From a virus, in the IMG/VR virus record IMGVR_UViG_3300034159_000005, positions 1-27,391 of that record: 27,391 nucleotides of DNA; one strand, 5' to 3'. A program made the position numbers and the translations under genes. Each line of letters starts with the position of its first letter. The stretch's first letter is position 1. Under the pieces are notes generated by a model. That model had not been told where the DNA came from. It made no database searches and saw nothing but the letters and a program-made list of their open reading frames with translations. Positions 879 through 26,471 of the stretch are shown here, in pieces.

Positions 879-891
879 TACCGGAACGATC
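879..891 (+). promoter_or_regulatory. Recurrent intergenic dyad motif, copy 1
   Basis: Reads TACCGGAACGATC, preceded by GGC and followed by TCGG. It is one of five related copies in this window (consensus CTAYCGRARCGRTCYCG). Dyad pairing in this copy is imperfect at one position (ACCG against CGAT). It lies 55 bases before the ATG of the first gene of the plus-strand operon. A TAATAC at 904-909 lies 17 bases after CCGGAA (881-886), so this copy could act as the -35 side of a promoter, but that spacing and -10 are not kept in the other copies. Confidence 0.6.
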
Positions 892-908
892 TCGGAGAGA
901 AAGTAATA

Positions 909-921
909 CGGTTTTAAACCG
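909..921. promoter_or_regulatory. Perfect dyad CGGTTT-T-AAACCG in the leader
   Basis: A 13-base odd-centred palindrome lies between motif copy 1 and the start of the kinase gene (26 bases before its ATG). Its size and position suit an operator or a short RNA hairpin. Function is unknown. Confidence 0.3.
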
Positions 922-946
922 GACGCTCACCATCGGAGCGCCATCT

Positions 947-1507
947 ATGATCGTCGTCGGCATCAAGGGCCTGATCGGGTCCGGCAAGTCCACCGTCGCC
1001 AGATATCTCGTCGAGCAGCACGGTTTCACGCCCGGCCGCTGGGCCGGCGCGCTGAAGGCGATGCTGAGCGCCCTTCTGACCTATCGCGGATGTCCGCCCG
1101 AGATCATCGAGCGCATGGTCGAGGGTGATCTGAAGGAAATCCCGACCGAATGGCTCGACGGCCGGTCGCCTCGGTACGCCATGGAAGGGCTCGGCAACGG
1201 ATGGGGCCGGGAATGGATGGGGAAAGGCTTCTGGATCGCGACCGAGACCGACCGTATCGCCGTCAGCCAGCCCGAGCGCGTCGTCTTCGAGGACTGCCGG
1301 CATCCCAATGAGGCCAAAGCGATCGAGCGCATGGGTGGTCGTGTTTGGGAGATCATCCGCCCCGGCCTGACGCCGCAGGATCACCACACTGAACGGTCGC
1401 AGCGCGCGATCATCCCGCACCACCAGGTCGTGAACGTGGATGGCGATCTCTTCAAGACGTTCGACAAGGTCGATGCCCTCGTTGCGAAGCTGGGAGCGCC
1501 CCGATGA
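947..1507 (+). CDS. P-loop deoxynucleoside monophosphate kinase-like protein
   Basis: A 186-residue protein with a textbook Walker A loop, GLIGSGKS, at residues 8-15. It later has a segment reading VVFEDCRHPNEAKAIERMGG, which matches the pattern of phage dNMP kinases, where an Asp-Arg pair and an (N)EA(D/K)AI helix close the nucleotide site. Known family members phosphorylate dNMPs with ATP to feed phage DNA synthesis; the substrate here is not readable from sequence. The ATG at 947 has a GGAG at 935-938 spaced 8 bases. A longer frame from a TTG at 767 has no ribosome site and would add 60 low-complexity residues, so I reject it. It is the first gene of the plus-strand operon and overlaps the next gene by ATGA. 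Confidence 0.75.
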   Translation: MIVVGIKGLIGSGKSTVARYLVEQHGFTPGRWAGALKAMLSALLTYRGCPPEIIERMVEGDLKEIPTEWLDGRSPRYAMEGLGNGWGREWMGKGFWIATETDRIAVSQPERVVFEDCRHPNEAKAIERMGGRVWEIIRPGLTPQDHHTERSQRAIIPHHQVVNVDGDLFKTFDKVDALVAKLGAPR

Positions 1508-4705: not shown

Positions 4706-4718
4706 GATCGGAACGATC
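4706..4718 (+). promoter_or_regulatory. Recurrent intergenic dyad motif, copy 2
   Basis: Reads GATCGGAACGATC, a perfect 5+3+5 inverted repeat (GATCG, GAA, CGATC). It begins 5 bases after the stop of the helix-turn-helix gene and ends 35 bases before the gpW-like start. It is the most symmetrical of the five copies. Confidence 0.65.
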
Positions 4719-4753
4719 TCTCGCGACTGTGCCGTCTCCCGTAGCTTCGGGGC

Positions 4754-4960
4754 ATGGCAAAGAGCGTCGAAGAACAACTCGAAGAAACCCTCGAATCGAT
4801 CCGTCAGGTCGAGAAGAGCGGCCAGCGCTACACGATCAAGGATCGTGAGCTTTGGCGCGGTGATCTGAAGGTTCTCGACCAGCGGGCGCAGCGCCTTGAG
4901 AAGGCGGCGGGCCGCGCCAAGAACGGCGGCGTCAAGATTCAGCGGATTGTCCCGCTGTGA
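4754..4960 (+). CDS. gpW-like head-tail joining protein
   Basis: A 68-residue protein, the same length as lambda gpW. It has an N-terminal helix (EEQLEETLESIRQVEKS), a short beta pair around GQRYTIKDRELWR and a second helix (DLKVLDQRAQRLEKAAG), which is the gpW arrangement. The GQxYTIxxRxLxRxDL pattern is common in gpW-like phage proteins encoded directly before the portal. In lambda, gpW binds the portal after packaging and prepares the head for tail attachment. Its stop TGA (4958-4960) overlaps the portal ATG by one base. The gap before it holds motif copy 2; only a weak CGGGG precedes the ATG. Confidence 0.7.
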   Translation: MAKSVEEQLEETLESIRQVEKSGQRYTIKDRELWRGDLKVLDQRAQRLEKAAGRAKNGGVKIQRIVPL

Positions 4961-11448: not shown

Positions 11449-11461
11449 TATCGAAGCGGTC
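11449..11461 (+). promoter_or_regulatory. Recurrent intergenic dyad motif, copy 3
   Basis: Reads TATCGAAGCGGTC, followed by TGTC. It lies 9 bases after the stop of the spike gene and 36 bases before the ATG of the gp25-like gene. ATCG and CGGT pair with one G-U if read as RNA. Confidence 0.6.
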
Positions 11462-11497
11462 TGTCACTGTCTCGCTTGACGCGGCACGGTGCGCCTT

Positions 11498-11914
11498 ATG
11501 GCGACTATCAACCGATTCACCGGCGCGACGATCGAAGGCATCGACGATGTCTGGCAATCGATTGGCACCATTCTGAGCACGGCTGTGGCGTCGTTGGTGA
11601 TGGCGCGCGACCTCGGATCGGTCATGCCGCGCTTGGTTGATCGCGCCGTGTCGCAGATCACCGTGATCGAGTTCTATGCCGCTGTGCCGGAAGCAATCAA
11701 TCGCATCAACCCCGAGACGTTGATGGCGGAAGAGCCGCGCTTCCGCATCGTCCAAATGACGATCGGCGATATGACCTCGGAGGGCCATCTGACCCTCGAT
11801 GTCGAGGGCATCTACTATCCTCGCGGTCATCTCGGCGACTATTCCGAAGCGCGCGACGCGCGTGGCAGCGTCGTTATTTCGAACAACAATGTCGTCACCG
11901 GGAGCTATGTCTGA
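11498..11914 (+). CDS. Baseplate wedge protein, P2 gpW / gp25 family
   Basis: A 138-residue protein. Family features are the N-terminal GATIEGIDDVWQSIGTILST, the key RDLGSVMPRLVD segment (matching R-x-FGS-x-LP in the family) and IEFYAAVPEAINRINPE. In contractile tails gp25-like proteins join the sheath to the baseplate wedge. The ATG at 11498 is chosen; a GTG three codons earlier gives a poorer start. The preceding 58-base gap carries motif copy 3 and no clear Shine-Dalgarno. The stop overlaps the next ATG by one base. Confidence 0.9.
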   Translation: MATINRFTGATIEGIDDVWQSIGTILSTAVASLVMARDLGSVMPRLVDRAVSQITVIEFYAAVPEAINRINPETLMAEEPRFRIVQMTIGDMTSEGHLTLDVEGIYYPRGHLGDYSEARDARGSVVISNNNVVTGSYV

Positions 11915-19703: not shown

Positions 19704-19716
19704 TACCGAAACGGTC
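19704..19716 (+). promoter_or_regulatory. Recurrent intergenic dyad motif, copy 4
   Basis: Reads TACCGAAACGGTC, with ACCG and CGGT around AAA as a perfect 4+3+4 dyad, followed by CCGAC. It starts 4 bases after a stop codon and lies 64 bases before the sheath ATG, upstream of the sheath leader hairpin. Confidence 0.65.
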
Positions 19717-19742
19717 CCGACACGTAGTTCGACGGTCAATAG

Positions 19743-19778
19743 GTTTCTCTCAATCCCAAATCGAGGATTGAGAGAAAC
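19743..19778 (+). promoter_or_regulatory. Perfect 14-bp hairpin over the sheath ribosome binding site
   Basis: The arms GTTTCTCTCAATCC (19743-19756) and GGATTGAGAGAAAC (19765-19778) are exact reverse complements around the 8-base loop CAAATCGA. The stem ends two bases before the sheath ATG at 19781. Its right arm contains the purine-rich GAGAG that would serve as Shine-Dalgarno, so folding would hide the start. No T run follows, which argues against a Rho-independent terminator. A translational switch, an mRNA-stabilising 5' hairpin or a cleavage site are all possible. Confidence 0.65.
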
Positions 19779-19780
19779 AA

Positions 19781-21193
19781 ATGTCCCTGACCGATTTCCT
19801 TCACGGCGTCGAGACTGTCGTCGTCGACCGTGGCCCCCGGCCCATTCAGACCGTTCGATCGTCCGTCATTGGCCTGATCGGCACTGCGGACGAGGCTGAC
19901 GCCGTCGCGTTCCCCTACGACAAATGCGTTCTCGTCAACCGCCGTCAGGCGGCGGCGCTGACCGGGTCGACCGGCAGCTTGCCCAAGGCGATCGACGCAA
20001 TCTTCGACCAGGGCGGCGCGGTCGTCGTGGTAGTTCGCGTGCCCGAACTCGCCGACGAAAACGAGCAGATGAGCCGCATCATCGGCGGCGTCGACGCCGC
20101 GACCGGCGAGTTCACCGGCATTCACGCCTTCCGCTCGGCTGAGACCGAGTGCGGCGTCTCTCCGATGATCCTGATCGCTCCCGGCTTCACCCATCAGCGA
20201 CCGATCGGCGTGATCGATCACCGCGTCACCAATCAGGGTACGGCCGACTACACGACCGCGACTGTCGAGTTCTCGGGTGGCGGCGAAGGCGCAGTTCTGC
20301 CGGTGGCTACCGTGATCCGGGTGAATGGCAAGGTCACCGGCTTGGAGTTCTCGTCTATCGGCTACGGCATCACCGCGCCCATCACCGCCACCATCCACGG
20401 CGACGGTGCGGGCGCGACCGTCACCGTCACGACCGGCCCCTCCGCCAACCCGGTAGTCGGCGAGATGAAGTCGCTGGCGGATGGTCTGAAGGCGCACATC
20501 ATCGCTGATGGTCCCTCGACCACCGACGCTGCCGCGTTCGCCTACCGCAACGACCATGGCACGCGCCGTGTCTATGTCGTCGATCCGACCGTATCTGGCT
20601 GGTCGGTGAAGTCCTCGACCTATTCGCTCGAACGCGGCTCGGCGCGCGTCGCCGGCCTGATCTCCCGTGTCGACAACGAGTACGGCTTTTGGGAGTCGCC
20701 CTCGAACAAGGAGGTGTATGGCATCGGTGGCCTCGGCCGGCCGATCGACTACGCATACGGCGACAAGAACAGCCGCGCGAACATCCTCAACGAAAACCAG
20801 ATCGCTACGTTCATCCGCGACGACGGCTGGTATCTGTGGGGCAACCGCACCTGCTCGGCTGACGAGAAATTCGCCTTTCTCTGCGTGTCGCGCACCTCCG
20901 ACATGATCGACATCTCCATCGCCAAGGCGCACCGCTGGGCTGTGGACCGCTCGATCACGAAGAACTACTTCGACGACGTGACCGCGTCTGTTCGCGCCTA
21001 CCTGCGGCAACTGAAGACGCGCGGCGCCATCCTCGGCGGTGACTGCTGGGTCGACCCCGAGTTCAACACCGAAGCCGACATCACGAAGGGGAACGCGACG
21101 TTCTCCTACGACTTCACTCCGCCGTATCCGGCCGAGCGCGTGACCTTCAGGTCGCATCTCGTTTCCGACTACATCCGCAACCTCTTCGCATAA
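19781..21193 (+). CDS. Contractile tail sheath protein, P2 FI-like
   Basis: A 470-residue protein. It has the family's early TVRSSVIGLIGTADEAD, FDQGGAVVVVVRVPE, the VYVVDPTV...SPSNKEVYGIGGLGRPIDYAY region and the conserved C-terminal ENQIATFIRDDGWYLWGNRTCSADEKFAFLCVSRTSDMID and LRQLKTRGAILGGDCWVDPE. P2 FI is 396 residues; the extra length is a beta-rich insert at about residues 145-220 with GGGEGAVLPVATV. Sheath subunits surround the tube and contract on infection. Translation is probably governed by the hairpin just upstream. The next gene follows after 11 bases. Confidence 0.93.
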   Translation: MSLTDFLHGVETVVVDRGPRPIQTVRSSVIGLIGTADEADAVAFPYDKCVLVNRRQAAALTGSTGSLPKAIDAIFDQGGAVVVVVRVPELADENEQMSRIIGGVDAATGEFTGIHAFRSAETECGVSPMILIAPGFTHQRPIGVIDHRVTNQGTADYTTATVEFSGGGEGAVLPVATVIRVNGKVTGLEFSSIGYGITAPITATIHGDGAGATVTVTTGPSANPVVGEMKSLADGLKAHIIADGPSTTDAAAFAYRNDHGTRRVYVVDPTVSGWSVKSSTYSLERGSARVAGLISRVDNEYGFWESPSNKEVYGIGGLGRPIDYAYGDKNSRANILNENQIATFIRDDGWYLWGNRTCSADEKFAFLCVSRTSDMIDISIAKAHRWAVDRSITKNYFDDVTASVRAYLRQLKTRGAILGGDCWVDPEFNTEADITKGNATFSYDFTPPYPAERVTFRSHLVSDYIRNLFA

Positions 21194-21758: not shown

Positions 21759-22043
21759 GTGGATACCATTGCTGATTTCGATCGTCGCACGAAGGCGGAT
21801 GTCGAACTGGACTATCCGGTCACCGTGAGCGCGGTCGAATACACCAAGCTGACGATGCGCCGGCCGAAGACCAAGGACTCGCTGAAGGCTGCGAAGGCGC
21901 GCGGCACCGAGGCCGAGAAGGGCATCTTGCTCTTGGCGGACCTCTGCGACGTTGCGCCCGACGTGATCGGCGAACTCGATGAGATCGATGCGAAGAAGCT
22001 CGGCGCCCAACTCGATGCTTTTCGTGGGGGTCAGTCGGACTAA
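21759..22043 (+). CDS. Tail assembly chaperone, P2 gpE-like
   Basis: A 94-residue protein (P2 gpE is 91). It starts at GTG with AGGAG at 21747-21751. Typical pieces are the N-terminal VELDYPVTVSAVEYTKLTMRRPKTKD, then KGILLLADLCDVAPDVIGELDEIDAKKLGAQLDAF. In P2 gpE and its frameshift form E+E' coat the tape measure during tail assembly. It sits between tube and tape measure, as in P2. The reading frame is left near the 3' end in the extended form (next entry). Confidence 0.82.
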   Translation: MDTIADFDRRTKADVELDYPVTVSAVEYTKLTMRRPKTKDSLKAAKARGTEAEKGILLLADLCDVAPDVIGELDEIDAKKLGAQLDAFRGGQSD

Positions 22044-22201
22044 CCGATCTCCGGAAGGCCGCACTGACCCTAATGCGTTTCTCGGAGGGAGGCATCTCTC
22101 TCTCCGAGATCGAAGAGATGGACTTCGATGATTTCATGGGGTGGCTCGGAGACGCAAGCGCGCTCCAAGCTGACATCAATAAGGCGATGAAGGGCAAGTA
22201 A
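22022..22201 (+). CDS. gpE' extension reached by -1 frameshift from the chaperone gene
   Basis: The -1 frame relative to gpE is open from 21983 to a TAA at 22199-22201 and encodes LTDLRKAALTLMRFSEGG, ISLSEIEEMDFDDFMGWLGD and a short helical tail. DFDDFMGWL resembles the hydrophobic-acidic motif of E'-type segments. There is no good independent start (ATG at 22073 lacks a ribosome site). Slip points could be TTTT at 22019-22022 or GGGGG at 22026-22030; neither is a classical X-XXY-YYZ heptamer in this frame. Either gives a 147-residue fusion, close to the 142 of P2 E+E'. The segment fills the otherwise empty gap before the tape measure gene. Confidence 0.7.
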   Translation, partial: SWGSVGLTDLRKAALTLMRFSEGGISLSEIEEMDFDDFMGWLGDASALQADINKAMKGK

Positions 22202-22202
22202 T

Positions 22203-24737
22203 ATGGCGACCGGCTTCTCCGTTTTCGTGAATATCGGAGGCAAGGTCGATAGCTCCCTCGCCACTGCCGTGAACGCAACGAAGTCGCAGGTCAAGGGCCT
22301 CGCGTCCTCGCTTGCCGGCATTGGCGCGCGTTTGAACGCCCCCTTCATCGCCGCAAACAAGCACCTCGATAGGACTGCCAAGCACCTGTCCGAGTTGCAG
22401 CGCAAGGGGCGCAATGCCTCGCTCGGGTTCTCGACGCCGGCCACCTGGTTTGGCGCAAATCTGATCAAGGATGCTGCCGAGTTCGCCAAGGCCGGTAACA
22501 TGGTCGAGGCCCTTGGTGAGGCGACCACCGAGCAGCGCAATCAACTGTCGTCCCTCTCGCAAGATTTGGCGAAGCGCTACGATGCGGGCGGCGCTGCCGG
22601 CATCCTCAAGTCCGCGACCGAGCTTCTGAAGGCCGGCTTCACGTTCGAGCAAGCGCGTGGCGCTTTGGAGCAGGTCTTGGCGGCGTCGGCGCTGGCGGGT
22701 GACATGACGCCAGCCGATGTCGGCGCGTCATTGAGTAAGACCGTCACTCAATTCCAGATGCCGATGAAGACCTTCGAGGACGCGATGAAGTCCTCGAAGA
22801 CTGTGACGGATCGAATGGTCTACGCGGCCGTGTCAACCGTGGCGTCCATGAAGGATGTTGCGGAGACGATGAAGTACGCCGGTGGCGTCGCCGCGTCCAC
22901 GGGCAACTCGCTCGACCAGGTCACCGCCATCATGATGAGCTTCGCCAAGGCCGGCGTGCTTGGCTCTGAGGCGGGTGTCGCGCTTCGATCTGCGATCGTT
23001 CGCATGGTCAAGATGCCCAAAGGTGGCTTGGCCGCCTTGAGCCGCATCGGCATGAATTTGAGTGACTACGTGCAGGCGCGTCCTGTCACGGCTGATGGCG
23101 TCATCGGAAGCCTGAAGGCTGATGGTATCGACGCGTCGAAGGCGAAGAAGCAGATTGAAGGAATCCTGAAGAATCGCGGAAACAAGGATCAGGCGACCGT
23201 CACCGCCGAAATCACCAAGGCTGTACAAGGTGCCTTGGGTAGCTCGTCTGCGGTCGACGCGGCCAAGATCGCTGAGACGATCAGTGAGGCTGTCAACGCG
23301 GCAGGGTCGAAGATCGACATCACCAAGTTCTTCACCGACCTGAAGGCGAAATTTGATGCGGGGATTGCCACCACCGGCGACATTGCGCAGATCCTCGAAG
23401 CGCGGCACATCTCGCGCTACATGGCTATCCTGAAGTCCGATCTCAACAAGCTCGTAGAGCAAATCGGCAAGGAAGCTGAGGGCTACTCCGAGAGGCAGTA
23501 TCTGCTCGCCAACAAGGGATTGCCGGCTGCGTTGGTGCGGCTCAATGCAACTTGGGCGCAGTTGAAGAACACGATCGCCGAGTCTGTCGGCGAAGAACTC
23601 ACCGATACGTTCGCCAACATCTCCGACAAGATGGAACGACTCTCGAAGTCGAGTCCGAAGACGTTCAAGCTCGGTGTCGCGCTCGCCGCTGCGGCGGTCG
23701 CCGCCGGGCCGCTGTTGTTTGCGTTGAGCGCAATTGGACGGATTTTGATCGTGGCATTCAAGGGGGTCAGCCTGGCGGTGATGGGGCTCAACCTGCTCTC
23801 GCTTGCGCTTCTGGCGCCGATTGCTCGCATCGGCGCGATGATCCTCGGGCTGAAGATGCTCTTCGCATTGGGGGCGAGGACGGCACTGGCGGTGCTTGCA
23901 GGCAGCCTTCTCTCCCTTGGCAAGGCGATCTTGCTGTTTCCGCTTGTCGCCCTACGCGGCATCGCTGTTGCGATGGCGGCGCTTATGCTGAACCCGGTCG
24001 GACTGGTCTTCACGGGCATCGTTGCCGCGCTGGCCGCGCTCGGCGTTTGGGTTGCCAACAATTGGGAGGGCCTGAAGAGCTTCTTTGCTGGTTTCGGCGA
24101 CGGGTTCATGAAGGGGCTTGGGCCGGCGAGCGGAGCGATCAAGAGCATCAGCGACGGGCTTGGGTCGGCCTTCAATTGGCTGGGCAAGCTGCTTGGCCCG
24201 TTGGACGAGTCCGGCGCCAAATGGAAGTCGTGGGGCGAGACCATGGGCGGTGCCGTCGCTCAAGGCGTCAACGCGGTGATCAACGGGATCAAGAGCCTGA
24301 TCGGCTTTTTCGGCACGGTCATCGAAAAGGCTGTGGCGCTTGGTGGTGCCATCCGCAATCTGTGGTCTGGCGGTGGTGGCCCTCGACCCGCCGCCCCGCC
24401 GCCCATTGCCGGCGCTCGCGCGCTTGGCGGCCCCGTGACCTATGGCAAGCCGTACCTGGTCGGCGAGCGCGGCCCCGAACTGTTCGTGCCCGGCGCGACC
24501 GGCCGCATTGAGACGAACGGGGCGCTGCGGCAAATGACCGAGAACGGTACGGCCGCCGCCGCCACCACCGCCTCCTACGCGTCGTCAAAGTCGACGGTCA
24601 ACAACGCAAAGATCGACATCCATGTCCGCGACGGCGGCAACAGCGATCCCCGCGCCATCGGAAGAGAAGCTGAAGCTGCTGTCTATCGCGTATTTGCACG
24701 GCTCGAGTCCGAGCAGCGCGGCCTCTTGAGTGATTGA
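22203..24737 (+). CDS. Tail tape measure protein, P2 gpT-like
   Basis: An 844-residue protein (P2 gpT is 815), so a tail of about P2 length is expected. The N-terminal part has VFVNIGGKVDSSLATAVNATKSQVKGL and coiled helices. Residues about 85-290 are the TP901-type minor tail domain (AEFAKAGNMVEALG, GVAASTGNSLDQVTAIMMSFAKAGVLGSEAGVALRSAI). A hydrophobic stretch, about 490-620, contains several possible membrane helices and may insert into the host membrane. Near the C-terminus GGPVTYGKPYLVGERGPELF is the usual end motif of such proteins. It is one base after the E' stop. Confidence 0.92.
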   Translation: MATGFSVFVNIGGKVDSSLATAVNATKSQVKGLASSLAGIGARLNAPFIAANKHLDRTAKHLSELQRKGRNASLGFSTPATWFGANLIKDAAEFAKAGNMVEALGEATTEQRNQLSSLSQDLAKRYDAGGAAGILKSATELLKAGFTFEQARGALEQVLAASALAGDMTPADVGASLSKTVTQFQMPMKTFEDAMKSSKTVTDRMVYAAVSTVASMKDVAETMKYAGGVAASTGNSLDQVTAIMMSFAKAGVLGSEAGVALRSAIVRMVKMPKGGLAALSRIGMNLSDYVQARPVTADGVIGSLKADGIDASKAKKQIEGILKNRGNKDQATVTAEITKAVQGALGSSSAVDAAKIAETISEAVNAAGSKIDITKFFTDLKAKFDAGIATTGDIAQILEARHISRYMAILKSDLNKLVEQIGKEAEGYSERQYLLANKGLPAALVRLNATWAQLKNTIAESVGEELTDTFANISDKMERLSKSSPKTFKLGVALAAAAVAAGPLLFALSAIGRILIVAFKGVSLAVMGLNLLSLALLAPIARIGAMILGLKMLFALGARTALAVLAGSLLSLGKAILLFPLVALRGIAVAMAALMLNPVGLVFTGIVAALAALGVWVANNWEGLKSFFAGFGDGFMKGLGPASGAIKSISDGLGSAFNWLGKLLGPLDESGAKWKSWGETMGGAVAQGVNAVINGIKSLIGFFGTVIEKAVALGGAIRNLWSGGGGPRPAAPPPIAGARALGGPVTYGKPYLVGERGPELFVPGATGRIETNGALRQMTENGTAAAATTASYASSKSTVNNAKIDIHVRDGGNSDPRAIGREAEAAVYRVFARLESEQRGLLSD

Positions 24738-26403: not shown

Positions 26404-26416
26404 TACCGGAACGGTC
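26404..26416 (+). promoter_or_regulatory. Recurrent intergenic dyad motif, copy 5
   Basis: Reads TACCGGAACGGTC (ACCG-GAA-CGGT dyad), preceded by GGC and followed by CCGCC. It starts four bases after the stop of the gpD-like gene and lies 55 bases before the amidase ATG, the same distance as copy 1 to its gene. Confidence 0.65.
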
Positions 26417-26471
26417 CCGCCAAGCGGATCGCGTTCGGCAATCATGACTCCATCATTCGTTGGAGCACGAT

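Follow-up and report, generated by a model that had tools for sequence, protein, structure and literature searches.

What does a long and perfect hairpin do when it covers the ribosome-binding region of a phage tail sheath gene? The question is raised by a DNA stretch of 27,391 nt (IMG/VR record IMGVR_UViG_3300034159_000005, positions 1 to 27,391, one strand; hereafter the window), in which the sheath leader contains an inverted repeat of 14 perfect pairs and an 8-nt loop (19743-19778), made up of the following parts.

19743 to 19756, plus strand: 5′ arm of the hairpin, GTTTCTCTCAATCC, its first 9 nt upstream of the predicted transcription start (+1)
19757 to 19764, plus strand: hairpin loop, 8 nt in the window and 8 or 9 nt in close relatives
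19765 to 19778, plus strand: 3′ arm of the hairpin, GGATTGAGAGAAAC, including the Shine-Dalgarno (SD)-like TGAGAG (19769-19774)
19781 to 21193, plus strand: tail sheath gene (Pfam and PHROG 23 tail sheath, E 2.7e-111)

An earlier note on this DNA had described a perfect 14-bp hairpin before the sheath gene, and the arms are indeed 100% complementary. It was right that the stem ends two bases before the ATG at 19781 and wrong in extending the feature to 19781 itself, which is the A of the ATG and not stem. Its placement of the stem over the likely SD also stands, since TGAGAG, a weak SD, lies in the 3′ arm. The sheath gene is followed by the tail tube gene. The hairpin is the longest 100% stem of the 27 kb window (spacing within 60 nt) and is predicted to fold at −22.4 kcal/mol, as against −5.4 ± 2.25 kcal/mol in shuffles (z −7.5; 0 of 200 shuffles as good), and no further copies of the stem sequence above chance were found in the window. 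Opening the SD zone costs 19.9 kcal/mol at the sheath start and at most 13.5 kcal/mol at the other 26 gene starts examined in the window, and the folding prediction for read-through RNA of the window has the SD paired, with an opening energy of 19.1 kcal/mol. An intrinsic terminator is ruled out, as the earlier note had anticipated: the hairpin has no T run, its tail reads AAATGTCC and there is no terminator-like site.

We propose that the hairpin blocks translation of read-through RNA and that its 5′ arm forms part of the sheath promoter, a reading that the layout of the leader makes likely. The elements of the putative promoter are as follows.

19704 to 19719, plus strand: promoter motif TACCGAAACGGTCCCG, 16 nt, present in every sheath leader of the relatives
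19740 to 19745, plus strand: −10-like hexamer TAGGTT, exactly 20 nt past the motif; T1, A2 and T6 are shared by all 12 distinct leaders
19752, plus strand: predicted transcription start, 6 nt past the hexamer, with an A in each of the 12 distinct leaders

The order of motif (16 nt), 20 nt, TANNNT, 6 nt and A shows no length variation in 20 sheath leaders (the window and 19 relatives), and the distance from the predicted +1 A to the ATG varies among them from 19 to 31 nt. It follows from the invariant spacing that the predicted start, A19752, falls inside the 5′ arm with 9 of the arm's 14 nt upstream, and hence the sheath's own mRNA would be without most of the stem. The suggestion in the earlier note that the hairpin works together with a motif copy just upstream, most likely the one at 19704-19719, is supported by this fixed layout. 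Conservation points to the same elements, with T−12, A−11, T−7 and A+1 invariant across the 12 distinct sheath leaders and A−11 and T−7 invariant across 15 distinct leaders of the lysis gene (see below). T−12, A−11 and T−7 are the positions that matter most in a −10 element of the sigma-70 type, and the hexamer TAGGTT agrees with the sigma-70 consensus at three positions and no more. Other copies of the motif lie at 879, 4706, 11449 and 26404 in the window, and the syntenic operon heads of relatives have the motif too, while four contigs returned by a motif scan (L131-L134) are without the sheath layout and were judged to be chance matches.

The motif at 19704-19719 contains a dyad, ACCG-AAA-CGGT (GATCG-GAA-CGATC at 4706), centered about −42 from the predicted start. 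This is where class II activators sit, and the dyad looks like a candidate activator site. In phage P2 the late operons are transcribed from P_P, P_O, P_V and P_F with Ogr, and the motif center is at about −55. The window resembles P2 in having a repeated late motif before several operons, one of them directly ahead of the sheath gene, and differs from it in the motif sequence, in the motif center (about −42 vs. about −55) and in having no Ogr_Delta protein: PF04606 was absent from the 12 related records examined, a set that includes fragments, and present in the E. coli control. An Ogr-type activator was rejected on this result.

The mechanism that we envisage begins with polymerase coming from the upstream baseplate/fiber operon, which would encounter no terminator on the way and would copy the whole inverted repeat. 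The resulting read-through RNA would form the 14-bp stem beside the AUG with the SD buried, and the sheath would not be translated. When the late motif at 19704 is used, the RNA would begin at about A19752, within the 5′ arm, and this own-promoter mRNA could form AAUCC/GGAUU only, leaving the start site open. Probably, then, only RNA begun at the sheath's own promoter is translatable, and it is most likely the starting point of the RNA and not a bound factor that decides whether the hairpin forms. The start sites, the read-through and the effect on translation are all predictions. In folding, RNA started upstream has the full hairpin and RNA from the predicted A19752 has five pairs left. This AAUCC/GGAUU remnant is worth about −3.4 kcal/mol in the local RNA of the window and is present in all close relatives (−3.0 to −4.4 kcal/mol). 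The predicted cost of opening the region from SD to AUG is 14.4 kcal/mol in read-through RNA vs. 3.5 kcal/mol in local RNA for the sheath gene (same direction in 12 of 12 distinct leaders) and 13.4 vs. 3.8 kcal/mol for the lysis gene (15 of 15), or about 14 vs. 3.6 kcal/mol when all 27 distinct leaders are pooled.

These results also bear on the suggestion that the hairpin belongs to the leader of the sheath mRNA itself and times sheath synthesis, either by switching its fold or by binding a translational regulator. The stem does hide the SD, the 5-bp remnant persists in the local RNA and most close relatives keep the inner core CTCAATCC/GGATTGAG unchanged, as would be expected of a binding site. 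However, the predicted start falls within the 5′ arm in all leaders, which makes the outer stem impossible in local RNA, and the same layout is built from unrelated stem sequences at the lysis gene and in two relatives (L021 and L153). The whole window also has no match to Rfam riboswitch or leader families at the gathering score. We consider such a switch unlikely, and for the ligand- or protein-driven version put forward in the earlier note the sequence offers no evidence. A role in RNA processing or stability, whether through cleavage of read-through RNA by a double-strand RNase or through a 5′ stem-loop that protects the sheath mRNA, would accord with the long perfect stem and with a 5′-terminal AAUCC/GGAUU in all close relatives, but it is very improbable indeed, as the remnant stem is weak and neither the constant inclusion of the SD in the 3′ arm at both operons nor the leaderless operon heads described below would be explained by it.

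Comparison with relatives, drawn from Bradyrhizobium genomes and viral contigs, provides evidence for the pairing on which the translational block would depend. Most of the sheath protein relatives show 80-87% identity, with 71% in L021 and more distant ones via alignment, and in the collection searched no isolated phage exceeds 54% sheath identity. The records behind L001 and L003 are those of Bradyrhizobium elkanii WSM2783 and B. retamae Ro19. A pattern scan of viral contigs for CTCAATCC..GGATTGAG gave 103 stretches, already known sheath relatives among them. The earlier note had called for a search for covariation in the leaders of related phages, and compensatory changes were found: complementarity is conserved or compensated, the exceptions being L002, L003 and L008 (outer stem) and L138. 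The inner core varies hardly at all (one change in L003), and the outer stem is compensated in some relatives (GCTTCT/AGAAGC, TTGTT/AACAA and GGTTCT/AGAACC) and broken in L002, the commonest leader type, L003 and L008, in which a 7-8 bp core and scattered pairs remain. The stem of L138 is weak, and L153 has the same layout with an unrelated stem sequence. Among the more distant relatives L155-L165 the hairpin is absent and there is no terminator either, and hence the design is not universal. Pairing alone does not fully explain the invariant inner core, which may tune the local RNA in the manner of the small sigG hairpin discussed below. As a separate observation, in L021 and L138 (around 3001) the 5′ arm contains CATG that pairs with the CATG of the start codon, with 10 pairs in L021 and a weak structure in L138.

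Among nine distinct sheath leaders, 89.7% of the pair cells are formed vs. 30-50% when the partners are slid. Both sides have changed in 8 cells representing three pairs, and the covariation score was reached by 0 of 500 shuffles, although 8 of the 14 stem pairs are constant or nearly so and hence give little information either way. In swap tests the pairing of the segment from −12 to −1 is stronger with the native leader than with leaders taken from relatives (z −4.7 for the sheath gene and −5.7 for the lysis gene; p at or below 5e-5), with a comparison to neighboring segments as the sole correction for phylogeny. None of the five neighboring 12-nt segments further upstream prefers its own leader, and shared ancestry alone is therefore insufficient for the signal at −12 to −1. 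Shuffled −12 to −1 segments pair even worse than swapped ones, and for the 9-nt segments of the lysis gene the values are −9.4 kcal/mol for native vs. −3.1 kcal/mol for shuffled sequences.

The same comparisons bear on two further explanations. Spurious pairing, arising where a pyrimidine-rich initiation region adjoins a purine-rich SD, might be suspected from the CTC/GAG at the core of many of the pairs and from the near-constancy of 8 of the 14, but native segments outdo both shuffled and swapped ones, the fold has a z of −7.5 and the leaderless heads have no CTC tract, which leaves this explanation scarcely credible. The inverted repeat might instead be a DNA operator at which a repressor dimer over the start site blocks the late promoter. 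The dyad overlaps −10 and +1 and its inner half-sites are nearly invariant, yet a half-site spacing of 8 or 9 nt would be unusual for a rigid dimer site, complementarity is kept even though sheath and lysis promoters, and different clades, have different stem sequences, and the arms are positioned by the SD/AUG, their center not being constant within the promoter. We therefore judge an operator to be very unlikely.

The translational block appears to recur at other operon heads in the window, where the relevant features are as follows.

26404 to 26419, plus strand: motif before the amidase/endolysin (lysis) gene, with hexamer AATCAT at 26440-26445 and predicted +1 at A26452
26448 to 26465, plus strand: SD-hiding lysis hairpin, CTCCA (26448-26452)/TGGAG (26461-26465), its 5′ arm ending at the predicted +1
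4706 to 4756, plus strand: motif copy of leaderless design, with hexamer TAGCTT at 4742-4747 and an ATG at 4754, exactly at the predicted +1
11449 to 11500, plus strand: motif copy of leaderless design before a gpW-like baseplate gene, with hexamer CACGGT at 11485-11490 and an ATG at 11498, one base past the predicted +1
879 to 949, plus strand: motif copy before a nucleotide-kinase-like gene (ATG 947), with a short hairpin, CGCTC (924-928)/GAGCG (936-940), over the SD

The lysis hairpin of the window is short and most relatives have a longer one. In each case the segment from −10 to +1 pairs with the SD/AUG region in a sequence that differs by relative (GATGTCT/AGACATC, TGCGCTC/GAGCGCA and ACTCTCCAA/TTGGAGAGT are examples), and the lysis gene would follow the same rule in the same phages. 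The earlier note had reasoned from the demand for sheath protein, but a design shared with the lysis gene is not tied to sheath stoichiometry in particular. The two leaderless heads, with the ATG at the start site, would be expected to give the same result by another route. At the 4706 head and its homologs, 6 nt separate the hexamer from ATGGC in all distinct motif-carrying leaders. The ATG at +1 in this case and one base past +1 at the 11449 head provide independent support for the start assignment and imply leaderless mRNAs. Hairpin, fixed promoter spacing, covariation and recurrence together make up the case at the level of sequence.

Two of these heads have additional symmetry. Relatives have an extra dyad (CGGTCTGAGACCG or ACCGATTGAGACCGT), possibly an operator, in the region where the kinase operon begins (879-949). 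At 4736-4756 the −10 region before the leaderless ATG is flanked in relatives by a dyad, GTCYCG-TAGCTT-CGRGRC, in which the window has CTCCCG, and read-through RNA would form a hairpin directly against the AUG. The swap test at the 4754 head indicates weak covariation (p 0.09) and is not significant because the arms there hardly vary.

Known systems provide precedents for a start-site hairpin that depends on where the RNA begins. In T4, an inhibitory hairpin covers the ribosome-binding site in the long RNA of genes e, soc, 49 and I-TevI, and in the case of e the RNA from late promoters is without the 5′ portion of a structure that cuts lysozyme synthesis about 100-fold (PMC3014915, PMC2988022). 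In Bacillus subtilis sigG, read-through RNA is predicted to be blocked by a large hairpin that is unable to form in own-promoter RNA, in which a small 5-bp hairpin at the ribosome-binding site is still present (PMC5942855). By analogy, the sheath and lysis arrangement would work like T4 e, soc and I-TevI and like sigG, in an unrelated group of temperate phages. With T4 it shares the inclusion of a lysis gene and similar hairpins in related phages, and it would also share a 5′ arm encoded by promoter DNA ahead of the start, so that the long RNA folds and the short one does not. It differs in belonging to a temperate P2-type myophage group of Bradyrhizobium and a sheath gene, in placing several operon heads under one rule, two of them through leaderless starts, and in the source of the blocked RNA, which is early or middle in T4 and here would come from the neighboring late operon or the host chromosome. 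The promoter is also of another type, a 16-nt motif plus TANNNT, and assignment to the T4 late class (TATAAATA, read by gp55) was rejected, as the window has TAGGTT with the 16-nt motif upstream. The likeness to sigG would be the blocked read-through from an upstream operon, with the small remaining hairpin paralleled here by AAUCC/GGAUU, and the difference is that sigG is a host developmental gene, a single case with a sigma F/G promoter. A literature search of open-licence papers for the same arrangement in temperate phages returned nothing relevant.

While no terminator-like sites were found on the plus strand at the operon boundaries of the window, a strong intrinsic terminator stands about 100 nt ahead of the sheath gene, between the fiber and sheath genes, in distant phages that encode a related sheath. 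These phages include Serratia phage MQ-4, Burkholderia phage Mica and Pseudomonas phage Persinger (L135, L136 and L137), as well as L181, L187 and L190. The gene boundary is the same and the sheath gene is likewise insulated from upstream transcription, but there the insulation works at the level of transcription, through a stem with a T run that sits about 100 nt upstream. It would fit that insulation is transcriptional in the terminator-bearing lineage and translational in the hairpin lineage. For the clade as a whole, we suggest that translational insulation replaces terminators and that each late operon head permits translation of own-promoter RNA only. The sheath and lysis genes, and probably the first operon, would do so with an arm that hides the SD and sits between −10 and +1, and the 4754 and gpW-like genes with a leaderless ATG placed at +1. 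We regard the chances of this generalization being right or wrong as evenly balanced. T4 and sigG are usually told as single genes, and here a related logic would extend to several operon heads across a phage clade. If this is true, operons could be packed end to end without terminators while the lysis and sheath genes stay silent in read-through RNA, and an SD-complementary arm placed between −10 and +1 would be a signature with which to search other genomes for promoter-gated translation. The analysis also yields precise start-site predictions for an unstudied late promoter.

Two minor observations concern neighboring parts of these genomes. The region at 21759-22203, before the tape measure gene, encodes a small tail protein with an overlapping region and is probably a frameshifted chaperone pair (cf. 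the annotation of phage Mica). One related record, IMGVR_UViG_3300046665_000229 (L024 and L150), has two different sheath loci at opposite ends of the contig, perhaps from adjacent prophages.
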